Source: Cyanobium sp. E1_MAG_00006 (lineage in GTDB: Bacteria > Cyanobacteriota > Cyanobacteriia > PCC-6307 > Cyanobiaceae). Taken from it: a stretch of 64,000 nt of DNA. Positions 9,298 to 64,000 of this stretch are shown piece by piece; the first letter of the stretch is position 1, and every line of letters begins with the position of its first letter. The notes beneath the pieces were generated by a model. That model was not told where the DNA came from. It saw only the letters and a program-made list of their open reading frames with translations, and did no database searches. Location of the stretch: positions 248,001-312,000 of the forward strand of contig JAIYAQ010000012.1 in NCBI GenBank assembly GCA_027488975.1, in the 5' to 3' direction. The position numbers and the translations under genes are program-made.

Positions 9298-9885
9298 ATG
9301 AGCTCCGACGGCACCAGCAGCCCCAGCGACGGCAGCAGCAGCAACGGTTCCGGTGATGTGCCCACGGTGCTGGTGCGCGATGGCCAGGGCCGGCAGCTGC
9401 TCTGCTTCCTTGAGCAGCTGATCCCCCTCGATGGCCACGACTACGGCCTGCTCACCCCCGTGGATACCCCGGTGTGCCTGGTGCGCATCGCTGGCGATGA
9501 CGACGAGGAGGACGAGGTGATCGAGGAGCTGGATGGCGCCGAGCCGATCCTCTCGGTGGCGGAGGTGGTGCTGCAGGAGCACGAACTCACCCTGGTGCGT
9601 TCCGCGGTCACCCTCACGGTGAGCGGCGAACTCGAGGAGCCCGATCAGGACGAACTCGATGAGGAGATCGACGGCGAGGACGACGACGACACCGACCTCT
9701 ACGAAATGCTGATCCAGTTCCGCGCCGAGGGGCAGGACTACGGTCTGTTCATTCCCCTCGACCCCTTCTTCGTTGTGGCGCGCATCCAGAACGGCGAGGG
9801 TGTGCTGGTGGAGGGCGAGGAATTCGAGCGGGTCCAGCCCCGCATCGAAGCGGAACTGGAGGAGCGCGAGCTCGCCGCCGACTGA
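9298..9885 (+). CDS. DUF3727 (with DUF1292-like half) acidic protein
   Basis: This 195-residue strongly acidic protein contains two related blocks. LEQLIPLDGHDYGLLTPVD (about residues 37-55) and LIQFRAEGQDYGLFIPLD (about 137-154) share the pattern DYGL-x-x-P-x-D followed by V-x-x-x-R-I. An Asp/Glu-rich linker joins them. The layout fits cyanobacterial and plastid DUF1292/DUF3727 proteins of unknown function. ATG 9298 is the first start after ruvX and precedes a Ser/Gly-rich disordered N-terminus. The ruvX, DUF3727, yqeG order with short gaps suggests one transcript. Confidence 0.8.
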   Translation: MSSDGTSSPSDGSSSNGSGDVPTVLVRDGQGRQLLCFLEQLIPLDGHDYGLLTPVDTPVCLVRIAGDDDEEDEVIEELDGAEPILSVAEVVLQEHELTLVRSAVTLTVSGELEEPDQDELDEEIDGEDDDDTDLYEMLIQFRAEGQDYGLFIPLDPFFVVARIQNGEGVLVEGEEFERVQPRIEAELEERELAAD

Positions 9886-60344: not shown

Positions 60345-61340
60345 ATGCTCTTCGCCTTGAAAGCCCGAGAACCTCTGACCGCCGTGCTGGCGGGCTTCGC
60401 CCTGACCTGCCTGCCGGCGGTCCTGCCGATCAACCCAGCCTCGAAGCCTGCGGGAAGCGCCACGTTGTCGGTGCTGCCGCGCGCCCAGGCCCAGACCAAC
60501 CCCGCCAGCACCGCCAGTACCGCCAAGGTGCTGCGTATCAGCGCCATCCCCGATCAGAAGCCGGAGAAGCTGAACCGGCTCTACGGGCTGGTGGCCAACG
60601 AACTCAGCAAGCAGCTGGGCGTCACGGTGAAGTACGTGCCCGTGACCGACTACACCGCCGCCGTGAGCGCCTTCCGCACCGGTGATCTGGATCTTGTCTG
60701 GTTCGGTGGCCTCACCGGCGTGCAGGCGCGCCTCCAGAAACCCGGTGCGCGGGTCTTGGCCCAACGAGACATCGACGCCTCCTTCCACACGATCTTCATC
60801 GCCAGCACCCGCAGCGGGCTTCAGCCCTTCAACAACGTGAAGGGGCTGACGGAACTGAAGGGCAAGCGCTTCACCTTCGGCTCCGAGAGCTCCACCTCCG
60901 GTCGGCTGATGCCGCAGTATTTCCTCGGCAAGGCGGGCGTGAAGCTGAGCGACTTCGCCGGCGGTGCACCCGGTTTCAGTGGCAGCCATGACGCCACCAT
61001 CGCCCTGGTGCAGAGCGGCGCCTACGACGCCGGCGCCGTGAACGCGCAGGTGTGGCGCTCCAGCCTCCGCGACGGCAAGGCCAACCGCTCCAAGGTGATC
61101 GCGATCTGGAAGACCCCCGGCTATCCCGACTACCACTGGATCGCCCAGCCCAATCTGGATCAACGCTTCGGCAAGGGCTTCACCACCAAGGTGCAGCAGG
61201 CCATCGTCAGCTGGCGCCCCTCCGATCCGGAGCAGAAGCAGATCCTCGGCCTGTTCGGTGCCCAGCAGTTCACCGACGCCAACGCCGCCGCCTACGGCCA
61301 GATCGAACAGGTGGGTCGGCAGATCGGCAAGATCCGCTGA
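60345..61340 (+). CDS. phnD: PhnD-family phosphonate/phosphite-type binding protein
   Basis: This 331-residue periplasmic binding protein has an N-terminal export signal (about residues 10-50, Ala-rich) and the PhnD-like fold: LRISAIPDQKPEKLNRLYG (about 64-82), VPVTDYTAAVSAFRTGDLDLVWFG (two blocks), GKRFTFGSESSTSGRLMP (about 173-190) and SHDATIALVQSGAYDAGAVN. It captures phosphonate, phosphite or phosphate for the ABC transporter encoded downstream. Two small membrane-protein genes separate it from the ATPase. Ligand is not decidable from sequence. Confidence 0.88.
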   Translation: MLFALKAREPLTAVLAGFALTCLPAVLPINPASKPAGSATLSVLPRAQAQTNPASTASTAKVLRISAIPDQKPEKLNRLYGLVANELSKQLGVTVKYVPVTDYTAAVSAFRTGDLDLVWFGGLTGVQARLQKPGARVLAQRDIDASFHTIFIASTRSGLQPFNNVKGLTELKGKRFTFGSESSTSGRLMPQYFLGKAGVKLSDFAGGAPGFSGSHDATIALVQSGAYDAGAVNAQVWRSSLRDGKANRSKVIAIWKTPGYPDYHWIAQPNLDQRFGKGFTTKVQQAIVSWRPSDPEQKQILGLFGAQQFTDANAAAYGQIEQVGRQIGKIR

Positions 61341-61430
61341 CCTCCTGCACCCGCAGCGGCATGAATCAGCCGGGAGTGGTTGAATCGGATCGAGACAGCA
61401 TTCGCTGGAGCTCAGGCTCCCGCTATCGGC

Positions 61431-61664
61431 ATGGCCCTTCTGCTCGATCTGATTCTGCTCGCTGCCGGCCTGGTGCTCTGGCAGCGGAGCAGCAGCGAGG
61501 GCGATGAGGTCTGGTCGCTGTTCCTGCGCGGGCTGGCGGTGATCGATCTGTCCATGATCGCAATCGGCAACGGGGTGCTCTGGCTGGAGATTCCCCTGCT
61601 GCTGGGAGCCCTGGCCCTGCCGTCGGTGGCGCGGCTGGAGCGTCGCCGCCACGGCAGCCTCTGA
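61431..61664 (+). CDS. 77-residue two-TM protein in phosphonate-type ABC cassette
   Basis: This small protein has two hydrophobic segments (about residues 2-15, ALLLDLILLAAGLVLW, and 32-60, LAVIDLSMIAIGNGVLWLEIPLLLGALAL) and a basic C-terminus (RLERRRHGSL). ATG 61431 is preferred; a TTG at 61380 would add 17 residues. It lies between the binding-protein gene and the ATPase gene on the same strand with short gaps, so it is probably co-expressed. No family is recognised. Confidence 0.55.
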   Translation: MALLLDLILLAAGLVLWQRSSSEGDEVWSLFLRGLAVIDLSMIAIGNGVLWLEIPLLLGALALPSVARLERRRHGSL

Positions 61665-61673
61665 GATCGGACG

Positions 61674-61760
61674 ATGAATCCGCGCGGACCTGATCTCGTG
61701 GAAGTGGCCCTGGTGGGGGTGATCCTGGCGCTGATCGTGTTCCGGTTCACGCTCCCTTAG
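61674..61760 (+). CDS. 28-residue single-TM peptide in phosphonate-type ABC cassette
   Basis: ATG 61674 opens a 28-codon frame encoding MNPRGPDLVEVALVGVILAL and then IVFRFTLP. One hydrophobic helix (about residues 8-25) is visible. It starts nine bases after the preceding small gene's stop and ends 17 bases before the ATPase start. The clean helix and operon-like spacing support it, but at this length chance cannot be excluded. It does not match small photosystem or cytochrome subunits that I know. Confidence 0.35.
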   Translation: MNPRGPDLVEVALVGVILALIVFRFTLP

Positions 61761-61777
61761 GCAGGCAGCATGGGGCC

Positions 61778-62557
61778 ATGAGCGCGTCAAGCCCCGCCAG
61801 CCCGCCGAACCCGGTGCTCGAACTGCGTGATATCCACGTGGCCGGCCGCGGCCAGCCGCGGCTGGAGGGCGTCTCGCTGACATTGGCCGCCGGCGAACGG
61901 GTGGCGCTGCTCGGCCCCAGTGGCGCCGGCAAAAGCACCCTGCTGGCGGTGGCCAACGGGCTGCTGGTTCCGCAGCGTGGCGCGGTGATCTGGGAGGGGC
62001 TGCCGCGGGCCCGCCAGGCCGGCCGCCGCCGCCGCCAGCAGGCGCGCATCGGCACCCTCTGGCAGGAGCTGCGCCTGATCGAGGAGCTCACGGTGCAGCA
62101 GAACCTCAACGCCGCGCGGCTGGCGCGCTGGAGCTGGCCACGCGCCCTGCTCAACCTGCTGCTGCCCCTGGAGAGCGAGGCCTGCGCCGCCGTGCTGCGC
62201 CGCATGGACCTGGATCCAGAACTGCTTAGTCAGCCGGTGACGGCCCTCTCCGGCGGCCAGCGCCAGCGGGTGGCCATGGCCCGGCTGCTGCGCCAGGAGC
62301 CGACGCTGCTGCTGGCCGATGAACCACTCGCCAGTCTCGATCCACGCCTGGCTGAGGAGCTGCTGGGGCTGCTGCTGCGGGAGGCCGAGGCGCCGCGGGC
62401 CCTGCTGCTGAGCCTGCACCGCCCCGATCTGCTCGCAGGCTTCGATCGAGCCATCGGTCTGCGCGGCGGCCGGCTGCAGTTCGACCTGCCCCTTCAGGCC
62501 ATCCGGCCCGAGCAGCTGCAGGAGCTCTATGCCGGCAGCGGCGAGCTGGTGGCATGA
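61778..62557 (+). CDS. phnC: PhnC-type ABC transporter ATP-binding protein
   Basis: This 259-residue ATPase has Walker A GPSGAGKST (about residues 45-53), the Q-loop around LWQELRLIEELTV (about 92-104), the ABC signature LSGGQRQRVAMARLL (about 155-169), Walker B LLLADEP (about 176-182) and the H-loop LSLHRPD. It powers the permease encoded next, whose ATG overlaps its TGA (ATGA). The pairing with a PhnD-like binding protein and a PhnE-like permease supports phosphonate/phosphite-type uptake. Confidence 0.88.
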   Translation: MSASSPASPPNPVLELRDIHVAGRGQPRLEGVSLTLAAGERVALLGPSGAGKSTLLAVANGLLVPQRGAVIWEGLPRARQAGRRRRQQARIGTLWQELRLIEELTVQQNLNAARLARWSWPRALLNLLLPLESEACAAVLRRMDLDPELLSQPVTALSGGQRQRVAMARLLRQEPTLLLADEPLASLDPRLAEELLGLLLREAEAPRALLLSLHRPDLLAGFDRAIGLRGGRLQFDLPLQAIRPEQLQELYAGSGELVA

Positions 62558-64000
62558 GGCCAGCCCCACCCCTGCTGGTGTTGCTGCCGGCCCTGGTGCT
62601 GCTGCCGGTGCTGCTGATGCTGCCGCAGCTGCTGCACGGCGGCGGCTGGGACCTGATCGGTCAGTTCGCCTGGGCAGCGCTGACGCCCGCCACCGACCCG
62701 GTGGTGGTGCAGTCCCTGCTGCGGGGGCTGGGGATCACCGCGGGCATGGCACTGCTGGGCTGGGCGCTGAGCCTGTTGCTGGGACTCGGGCTCGGATTGC
62801 TGAGCTCCCGCCTGATCTGGCACACCCTCAGCGGCGCAGCGGCGCCGGCCGCATTGATCCGGCGCCTGCTGGCGCTGCCGCGCTCGATCCATGAACTGAT
62901 CTGGGGCCTGCTGCTGCTGCAGTTGATCGGTCAGCGGCCGGCCGTAGCGGTCGTGGCCATCGCCATCCCCTACGGCGCGCTGGTGGCTCGTGTGGTGAGC
63001 GACCTGCTCGATGCCCTGCCCACCCGCGGCCTGGAAGCCCTGCGCACGGCGGGCGCTCCTGCCACCGGCGCCCTGCTCACCGCCATCGGCCCGCCGCTGC
63101 TGCCAGGGGTGATCAGCTACAGCGGCTATCGGCTCGAATGTGCGCTGCGCAGCGCCACCTTGCTGGGGGTGTTCGGCCTGGGCGGCCTCGGCAATGAGCT
63201 GCTGCTCACCCTGCAGTCGTTGCAGTTCCATGAGCTCTGGAGCGGCCTGTGGCTGCTGCTGGCGGTGATGCTCACGCTCGAGAGCACGATCGCGCTGCTG
63301 CGACGGCGCTGGAGCATGCCCCGCCGCCTTGGCCTGGCCGCCGCCGCGGTGCCCGTGGGTTCACGTGGTCGGGAGATCCTGCTGGCCCTGGCGCTGCTGC
63401 TTCCCGTGCTGCTGCTGGTGGCCGGCGCGCTGGAGGTGAAGCCGACGGACCTGTTGCAGTGGCAGCCCCTGCCACCGCTGGCGCCCCAGGGCTGGGCGAC
63501 GGCCCTGGCCCTGCCCTGGCCCAGCCTGATCGGCAGCACGCTGCTGCTCACCCTGATCGCCGCGGGACTGGCGGTGGGGGCGGCTCCGCTGCTGCTGCTG
63601 GCGGTGGCCCCCTGGCCCTGGGGGCGGACTCTGCTGCAGCTCCTCTGGGCCTTCGGCCGCCTCTGGCCGCCACCGCTGACGGCGCTGCTGCTGCTGTTCG
63701 TGCTCCAGCCGGGTGTGATCGCCGCGGCCCTTGCCCTCGGCTTCCACAACCTGGGCATCCTGGGGCGCCTGCTGCTTGAGGGGTGCGAAGCGGCAGGCCC
63801 GGCCACGGAGCAGGCCCTGCTCTGCAGCGGCACCACCCCCAGGCTGGCCCTGCTCTACGGACGCTTCAGCGCCCTGGCGCGCACCTACCTGGCCTACGGC
63901 GCCTACCGCAGCGATGTGATCCTGCGGGAAACCGTGGTGGTGGGCCTGGTGGCCGGCAGCGGCCTGGGCAGCCAGCTGCGCGAGAGCTTGAGCGGCTTCG
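62554..64000 (+). CDS. phnE: PhnE-type ABC permease, two fused domains, 3' end outside window
   Basis: The frame opens at ATG 62554 and stays open to the right edge (482 codons seen). Two permease domains follow one another. The first (about residues 50-245) has the coupling loop region LEALRTAGAPATGALLTAIG. The second (about 325-482) has LLEGCEAAGPATEQALLCSG, GRFSALARTYLAYGAYRSDV and VVVGLVAGSGLGSQL. Each half corresponds to one PhnE-like subunit, so this is a fused dimer. It is very leucine-rich with ten or more membrane segments. Confidence 0.88.
   Translation, partial: MRPAPPLLVLLPALVLLPVLLMLPQLLHGGGWDLIGQFAWAALTPATDPVVVQSLLRGLGITAGMALLGWALSLLLGLGLGLLSSRLIWHTLSGAAAPAALIRRLLALPRSIHELIWGLLLLQLIGQRPAVAVVAIAIPYGALVARVVSDLLDALPTRGLEALRTAGAPATGALLTAIGPPLLPGVISYSGYRLECALRSATLLGVFGLGGLGNELLLTLQSLQFHELWSGLWLLLAVMLTLESTIALLRRRWSMPRRLGLAAAAVPVGSRGREILLALALLLPVLLLVAGALEVKPTDLLQWQPLPPLAPQGWATALALPWPSLIGSTLLLTLIAAGLAVGAAPLLLLAVAPWPWGRTLLQLLWAFGRLWPPPLTALLLLFVLQPGVIAAALALGFHNLGILGRLLLEGCEAAGPATEQALLCSGTTPRLALLYGRFSALARTYLAYGAYRSDVILRETVVVGLVAGSGLGSQLRESLSGF

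Follow-up and report, generated by a model that had tools for sequence, protein, structure and literature searches.

The window analyzed here is a 64,000-nt stretch of the genome of Cyanobium sp. E1_MAG_00006 (contig JAIYAQ010000012.1, forward-strand positions 248,001–312,000; G000:C2:248001-312000, within a 2.7-Mb genome). Its right-hand end carries an ATP-binding cassette (ABC) transporter locus in which two small open reading frames, ORF1 and ORF2, stand between the gene for the substrate-binding protein and those for the ATPase and a fused permease:

60345–61340, + strand: substrate-binding protein, 331 amino acids, the orthologue of picocyanobacterial PhnD1
61431–61664, + strand: ORF1, a 77-amino acid hydrophobic membrane protein with no significant Pfam, NCBIfam, or PDB match
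61674–61760, + strand: ORF2, a 28-amino acid one-helix peptide with a conserved N-terminal N-P-R-G-P-D
61778–62557, + strand: PhnC-like ABC ATPase, 259 amino acids
62554–64000, + strand: fused permease with two PhnE-like halves, cut by the window edge and continuing for ∼104 nt

ORF1 begins 90 nt after the binding-protein stop codon, gaps of 9 and 17 nt separate ORF1 from ORF2 and ORF2 from the ATPase gene, and the ATPase and permease frames overlap by 4 nt. In full, the permease comprises 516 amino acids (L005:7555-9105). It is followed, past the right edge, by a GDSL lipase-like gene, the counterpart of the tesA gene reported beside phnD1C1E1, giving the order binding protein, ORF1, ORF2, ATPase, fused permease, GDSL gene. 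An earlier note, made from the sequence alone, had placed two small membrane proteins with these gaps on the operon strand between the binding protein and the ATPase, and the frames as read bear this out.

A PhnD1CE-type cassette with a fused permease

The binding protein passes the curated cut-off of the NCBIfam model TIGR04553, “putative selenate ABC transporter SBP” (substrate-binding protein), scoring 318.7 bits against a threshold of 250. This model is a hypothetical equivalog, and its name is a prediction. The same protein falls well under the cut-off of the PhnD equivalog TIGR03431 (119.5 against 261.1 bits) and matches PF12974 with 207.8 bits. Its nearest named relative comes from an uncultured Synechococcaceae bin (97% identity over 269 columns). 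In the PDB it matches PhnD1 of Synechococcus MITS9220 (7s6g/7zck, E value 3.7e-121) and of Prochlorococcus MIT9301 (5lq5, E value 2.9e-95). All seven residues that contact phosphate in MITS9220 PhnD1 (Y44, S124, T125, S126, H156, D203, and Y204) are kept, corresponding by alignment, with a hand-counted offset, to Y103, S183, T184, S185, H215, D262, and Y263 of the window protein. ArrX stands far down the same PDB list (E value about 1e-7), and an arsenic role was considered on this ground.

The ATPase matches PF00005 (107 bits), and its best NCBIfam model, TIGR02315 (PhnC), gives 153 bits, under the cut-off of 266.1. The full permease likewise remains under the cut-off of TIGR01097 (PhnE; 200.3 against 216.7 bits), which it matches in two stretches. 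Its halves are homologous to each other (hhalign probability 96.6, E value 5.7e-10, 134 columns), and the earlier description of this protein as a fusion of two PhnE-like domains holds on both grounds. The AlphaFold2 model of the permease has a mean predicted local distance difference test score (pLDDT) of 84.4 and a predicted template modeling score (pTM) of 0.84. Among PDB folds, it is best matched by FbpB, a fused ferric permease (9j4r; E value 4.5e-7, template modeling score 0.56), aligned over the whole length with 22% identity and a root-mean-square deviation of 9.6 Å. This is the sole high-ranking whole-length match, most further type I permease matches spanning one half only. FbpB, part of an iron importer, and the window permease are each a single chain of about 500 amino acids with two halves.

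The cassette represents the PhnD1CE ABC importer in its freshwater-picocyanobacterial form; picocyanobacteria are among the most abundant phototrophs. The cassette shares with the MITS9220 and MIT9301 systems the binding protein, the kept ligand contacts, and the downstream GDSL/tesA gene, and adds the ORF1/ORF2 pair. PhnCDE and PtxABC belong to the same superfamily and have the same parts (binding protein, ATPase, and permease), but the window cassette differs from them in that it misses the equivalog models, has a fused permease, and has no catabolic genes among the nearby frames examined.

ORF1 and ORF2 are conserved small membrane proteins

ORF1 and ORF2 are genuine, conserved genes. In a sample of 201 genomes of the window's family, many of them incomplete, a protein search finds ORF1 adjoining the binding-protein gene in 22 genomes including the window's (58–100% identity; 58–72% in the 21 others), and an ORF2 profile gives strong matches (E value 1.2e-16 or better) in exactly the same 22. 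Among 80 named loci, the best 80 binding-protein matches among those listed, 27 carry both genes, none carries one alone, and 53 carry neither; such small proteins are thus absent from most related cassettes, in line with the earlier note. The order binding protein, ORF1, ORF2 is fixed in all 27 carriers. With distances taken to where the ORF2 profile match starts, the two frames share 1 or 4 nt in 16 of these and are separated by 1–9 nt in 11. The ATPase match lies within 109 nt of ORF2 in 24 carriers and 3.6 kb away in two (L127 and L155), and the contig ends in the remaining one. The pair occurs behind the binding-protein gene in mostly freshwater lineages. Its presence requires at least four changes on a quick binding-protein tree with many weak branches, so the pair has been gained or lost a few times and is mainly inherited.

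The synonymous bias that the earlier note had suggested looking for is present in both frames. In four groups of close relatives, the ratio of nonsynonymous to synonymous differences per site (pN/pS) is 0.06–0.20 for ORF1 and 0.09–0.19 for ORF2; the binding protein gives 0.08–0.14. When every pair among the 22 loci is included, with many synonymous changes, the values are 0.48 for ORF1, 0.42 for ORF2, and 0.30 for the binding protein. In eight hand-picked pairs of related loci, differences at codon positions 1, 2, and 3 number 39, 13, and 108 in ORF1 and 13, 12, and 41 in ORF2. Invariant residues of ORF1 over 28 rows include D6, W17, R19, D25, W28, D39, P64, and S65, and 11 of the 28 columns of ORF2 are invariant over 14 rows. 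Given this conservation, the pN/pS values, the codon-position bias, and the co-occurrence of the two genes, there is next to no chance that they are accidental open frames in GC-rich DNA, short as both are and rich as the region is in mechanical open reading frames.

The 77-residue protein had been described as having two helices; it has three hydrophobic segments instead, and its AlphaFold2 model is weak (pLDDT 61.3, pTM 0.33). ORF2 has, as described, a single hydrophobic segment (residues 8–26). Searches of Pfam, NCBIfam, and the PDB returned nothing near a cut-off for ORF1, and for ORF2 no Pfam, NCBIfam, or significant PDB match; the pair adds two protein families to those these databases recognize, one only 28 residues long. 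Weak, partial ORF2 matches in 13 further family genomes (E values 2.7e-4 to 0.083) were dismissed. Three such loci were opened: in L095 the motif sits inside a 278-amino acid frame, and the two others showed nothing.

The permease fusion is not linked to the small proteins. A permease match of at least 600 bits is found in 53 of the named loci, 22 carriers and 31 non-carriers, the other 27 having no match or a partial or weaker one. The permease is 511–548 amino acids long in 49 of 54 rows, the window included; the five shorter ones reflect a contig end or the start chosen. Because fused permeases are present with and without ORF1 and ORF2, a link between the two features was rejected and the fusion is independent of the pair.

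The chances are about even that ORF1 and ORF2 act as accessory subunits of the transporter, contributing to its stability, coupling, or regulation. KdpF, AcrZ, and CydX are small accessory membrane subunits of one or a few helices, encoded together with a larger membrane complex. ORF1 and ORF2 resemble them in having few helices and in being co-encoded. It is a serious if somewhat less favored possibility that the pair are real genes but passengers, which are expressed together with the binding protein but serve another purpose. In L127 and L155, ORF1 and ORF2 stay behind the binding-protein gene with the ATPase and permease genes 3.6 kb away, past genes on the opposite strand, an arrangement that counts against a direct tie of the pair to the permease, and 53 of the 80 loci manage without them. 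The intervening ∼3.6 kb hold opposite-strand genes that by eye resemble those for an arginase or agmatinase and a urea transporter. Against the passenger explanation stand the strict pairing and fixed position in all 27 carriers and the ORF1/ORF2 overlap in 16.

Relatives of ORF1 bear on both possibilities. Weaker relatives, about 30–45% identical, occur elsewhere in many family genomes; an ORF1-family profile has matches in 131 of the 299 genomes of an order sample and, in a phylum sample of 292 cyanobacterial genomes, in 18 of the 36 from the window's family and none of the 256 others. We opened 27 distinct relatives (28 loci, two being one gene). Sixteen lie directly (≤123 nt) behind a DppC/NikC-like ABC permease gene, which speaks against passengers, and two lie 1–1.4 kb behind such a gene. 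Nine have none in the stretch read, and trmH is present in the stretch for 24 of the 27, both points in the passengers' favor. No ORF2 match stands beside any of the 27. These relatives hint that ORF1 belongs to a family of small membrane proteins associated with ABC transporters, though the association is not strict. Since they also lie behind another permease gene, or beside no transporter gene, the tie of ORF1 to the present transporter is not exclusive, which detracts from an accessory role. The window's genome has a DppC-like gene but a single ORF1-profile match. In many family genomes (L064, L070, L207, L218, L224, and others), the ORF1 relative sits between the DppC/NikC-like permease gene and trmH.

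The gap between binding protein and ATPase was also opened in 11 loci without ORF1 and ORF2. Ten hold a different, soluble-looking frame of 73–105 amino acids with the motifs LNWWP and LVGDPAxR (for example L110:5988-6230, L128:5893-6135, and L164:5887-6129); in L155 such a frame (9527-9799) precedes the displaced ATPase. The single frame searched matched no Pfam model above cut-off and nothing in NCBIfam.

Selenium genes in the company of the transporter

The window's genome encodes SelD (TIGR00476, 186.1 bits) and MnmH (TIGR03167, 356.1 bits), both over cut-off; MnmH is the enzyme that inserts selenium into tRNA. In the phylum sample, TIGR04553 is over cut-off in 49 genomes and MnmH in 56, and MnmH accompanies TIGR04553 in all 49, compared with 7 of the 243 genomes without it (Fisher 1.6e-48; neither this nor the other Fisher values given here are corrected for relatedness of the genomes). 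With the window's family excluded, the counts are 15 of 15 and 6 of 241 (Fisher 8.1e-20), the positives falling in eleven family codes. As a control, MnmH was counted in genomes where the binding protein has at most sub-cut-off relatives: 3 of the 78 with such relatives encode it, as do 4 of the 165 without any. The sub-cut-off relatives do not track MnmH, and the selenium link therefore belongs to this binding-protein subfamily. Within the family sample, 160 of 170 genomes with the transporter have MnmH over cut-off, compared with 22 of 31 without it (Fisher 5e-4). Two near-complete genomes, G005 (99%) and G044 (95%), lack both transporter and MnmH.

Gene order points the same way. Of the 80 named loci, taken with about 5 kb of flank on each side as far as the contig reaches, 28 contain mnmH, and 24 of these contain selD too. 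By frame position, mnmH is upstream of the binding-protein gene in 26 and downstream in two; a stricter placement rule gives 22 upstream and two downstream, the other four having very long antisense frames. On the tree, the mnmH neighborhood requires at least five changes, with four loci that have a short upstream flank and no mnmH excluded. The matches to the binding-protein gene and to mnmH are close in family genomes as well, for example less than 0.3 kb apart in G175, G113, G090, and G198.

Several observations weigh against tying the transporter to selenium. The window's own genome has selD on C22 and mnmH on C11, neither linked to the transporter on C2. Probes from this genome, whose reach at such distances is uncalibrated, found neither gene within up to about 8 kb on each side of 13 loci outside the family. 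Inside the family, the association weakens because both genes are nearly everywhere. MnmH occurs without the transporter over cut-off in 7 phylum-sample and 22 family-sample genomes. The 22 include nine of the ten genus g9 genomes (G008, G063, G091, and others) as well as G073 and G179. That genus g9 keeps MnmH without TIGR04553 means that the transporter is not the sole selenium route, and another route of entry is expected there. Conversely, ten family genomes, most of them incomplete, have the transporter without MnmH over cut-off (G013, G015, G021, G026, G028, G041, G046, G050, G120, and G127); G026 is 99% complete with only a partial MnmH match, and G013 and G021 are each 90% complete. 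Finally, mnmH is in the locus for only 2 of the 27 ORF1/ORF2 carriers, compared with 26 of the 53 non-carriers, so the neighborhood evidence comes mainly from loci without the pair.

Two further features of these genes were seen in passing. The SelD match of the window's genome (L006:1501-2427, G000:C22) is part of a 726-amino acid open frame and is therefore probably fused to another domain. Locus L126 (CALPNT020000008.1), titled as a Bifidobacterium breve metagenome-assembled genome, has a Cyanobium-type selD-mnmH-transporter cluster and is most likely from a mislabeled bin.

Substrate of the transporter

Taken with the passing of TIGR04553 and the failure of the PhnD equivalog, the co-occurrence with MnmH and the mnmH-selD neighborhood lead us to regard the cassette as a likely ABC importer of a selenium oxyanion, with ORF1 and ORF2 as probable accessory subunits. 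TIGR04553 is named for selenate; here selenite seems the more likely substrate. The periplasmic binding protein would close around SeO3(2-) and then dock on the fused permease, whose two halves would form one translocation path, with the ATPase driving import. The imported selenium would be reduced and passed to SelD, which would make selenophosphate, and on to MnmH, which would place 2-selenouridine in tRNA. Selenite resembles phosphite in shape and charge.

The published data on PhnD1 consulted here assign PhnD1CE to phosphorus, in contrast to the assignment to selenium made here. PhnD1 proteins bind phosphite with dissociation constants (KD) of 0.05–4.3 μM and phosphate with constants of 7–182 μM (PMC10284923). 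By the ratios of these values, phosphate binding is weaker than phosphite binding by 6- to 52-fold in four Synechococcus proteins and by several hundredfold or more in the Prochlorococcus one. Hypophosphite is not bound by the Synechococcus proteins, and most strains have no known pathways to use the phosphite that PhnD1 binds (PMC10284923). The system has been reported from every one of the 97 genomes of Prochlorococcus and Synechococcus in one database, with tesA beside it in almost all picocyanobacteria (PMC10284923). Because selenite is likewise a three-oxygen trigonal oxyanion, the preference for phosphite over phosphate could be mimicry. We lean, by a modest margin of confidence, toward PhnD1CE as a whole being a dedicated high-affinity selenite importer, a type that reviews describe as not yet found in prokaryotes, to which Vulcanococcus, the Cyanobium usitatum group, and other freshwater lineages add a two-protein membrane module.

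If true, this role would resolve the paradox of a system that binds a compound most of its hosts have no known way to use, and would offer a candidate for the dedicated selenium importer that is still missing: according to PMC9312934 and PMC13188914, a high-affinity transport system for selenium has yet to be identified, and the authors of PMC11097638 know of no specific selenium transporter. YedE has been proposed for selenium transport (PMC5322559), and an unspecified ABC ATPase lies near orphan selD genes (PMC5029168). The wording “putative selenate ABC” has a single match in the literature text searched (PMC13077682). The NCBIfam name already anticipates the substrate class, and novelty is limited accordingly; what is new here are the genome-wide and neighborhood tests and the connection to the PhnD1 literature. 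We found no published link of PhnD1 or the cassette to selenium in a search that left most subscription papers, and all preprints and supplements, outside. The string “selen” does not occur in the main text of PMC10284923, whose ligand list sits in the supplement, and word searches of the text available for PMC8786288 and PMC5700983 found no mention of selenium.

The foremost competing substrate is phosphate. A constitutive, medium-affinity phosphate importer (Shah et al., 2023), with fortuitous phosphite binding and an indirect selenium association, is in our view unlikely but has published data behind it, some of which also tell against a selenium substrate: phosphate co-purified with MITS9220 PhnD1 and is present in the crystal structure, its KD is 7–182 μM, four of the proteins were stabilized by phosphorus-containing cocktails only, the system does not respond to phosphate status, and the adjoining tesA was interpreted as a phospholipid link (PMC10284923). 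The papers searched also yielded no selenium binding or transport measurement for this system. A phosphate importer, however, predicts neither the 49 of 49 co-occurrence with MnmH and the mnmH-selD neighborhood nor the 3 of 78 among sub-cut-off relatives, and phosphate is bound more weakly than phosphite by the factors given above.

Import of phosphite or phosphonate, the substrate proposed in the earlier note, is very improbable: the fold family and the phosphite KD agree with it, but the PhnC, PhnD, and PhnE cut-offs are all missed, relatives point to selenium in both gene content and gene order, Synechococcus WH8102 and MITS9220 grow on neither phosphite nor methylphosphonate, whereas Prochlorococcus MIT9301, with ptxD and a second system, grows on both (PMC10284923), and the ptxD or C-P lyase genes that the note had proposed to look for beyond the right edge, like phnYZ, do not occur among the frames inspected over the following 10 kb, the stretch to which the search for them was confined.

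A promoter and terminator scan found none, and Rfam over 19 kb gave no match at the gathering threshold. Past the GDSL gene, ten further frames were picked by eye up to the end of L005. The first five are a sigma factor, a DUF92 protein, a frame without a Pfam match, an RNA methyltransferase, and a DUF3531 protein; the last five are an ABC ATPase, Hsp33, a CPP1-like protein, release factor 3, and a methyltransferase.

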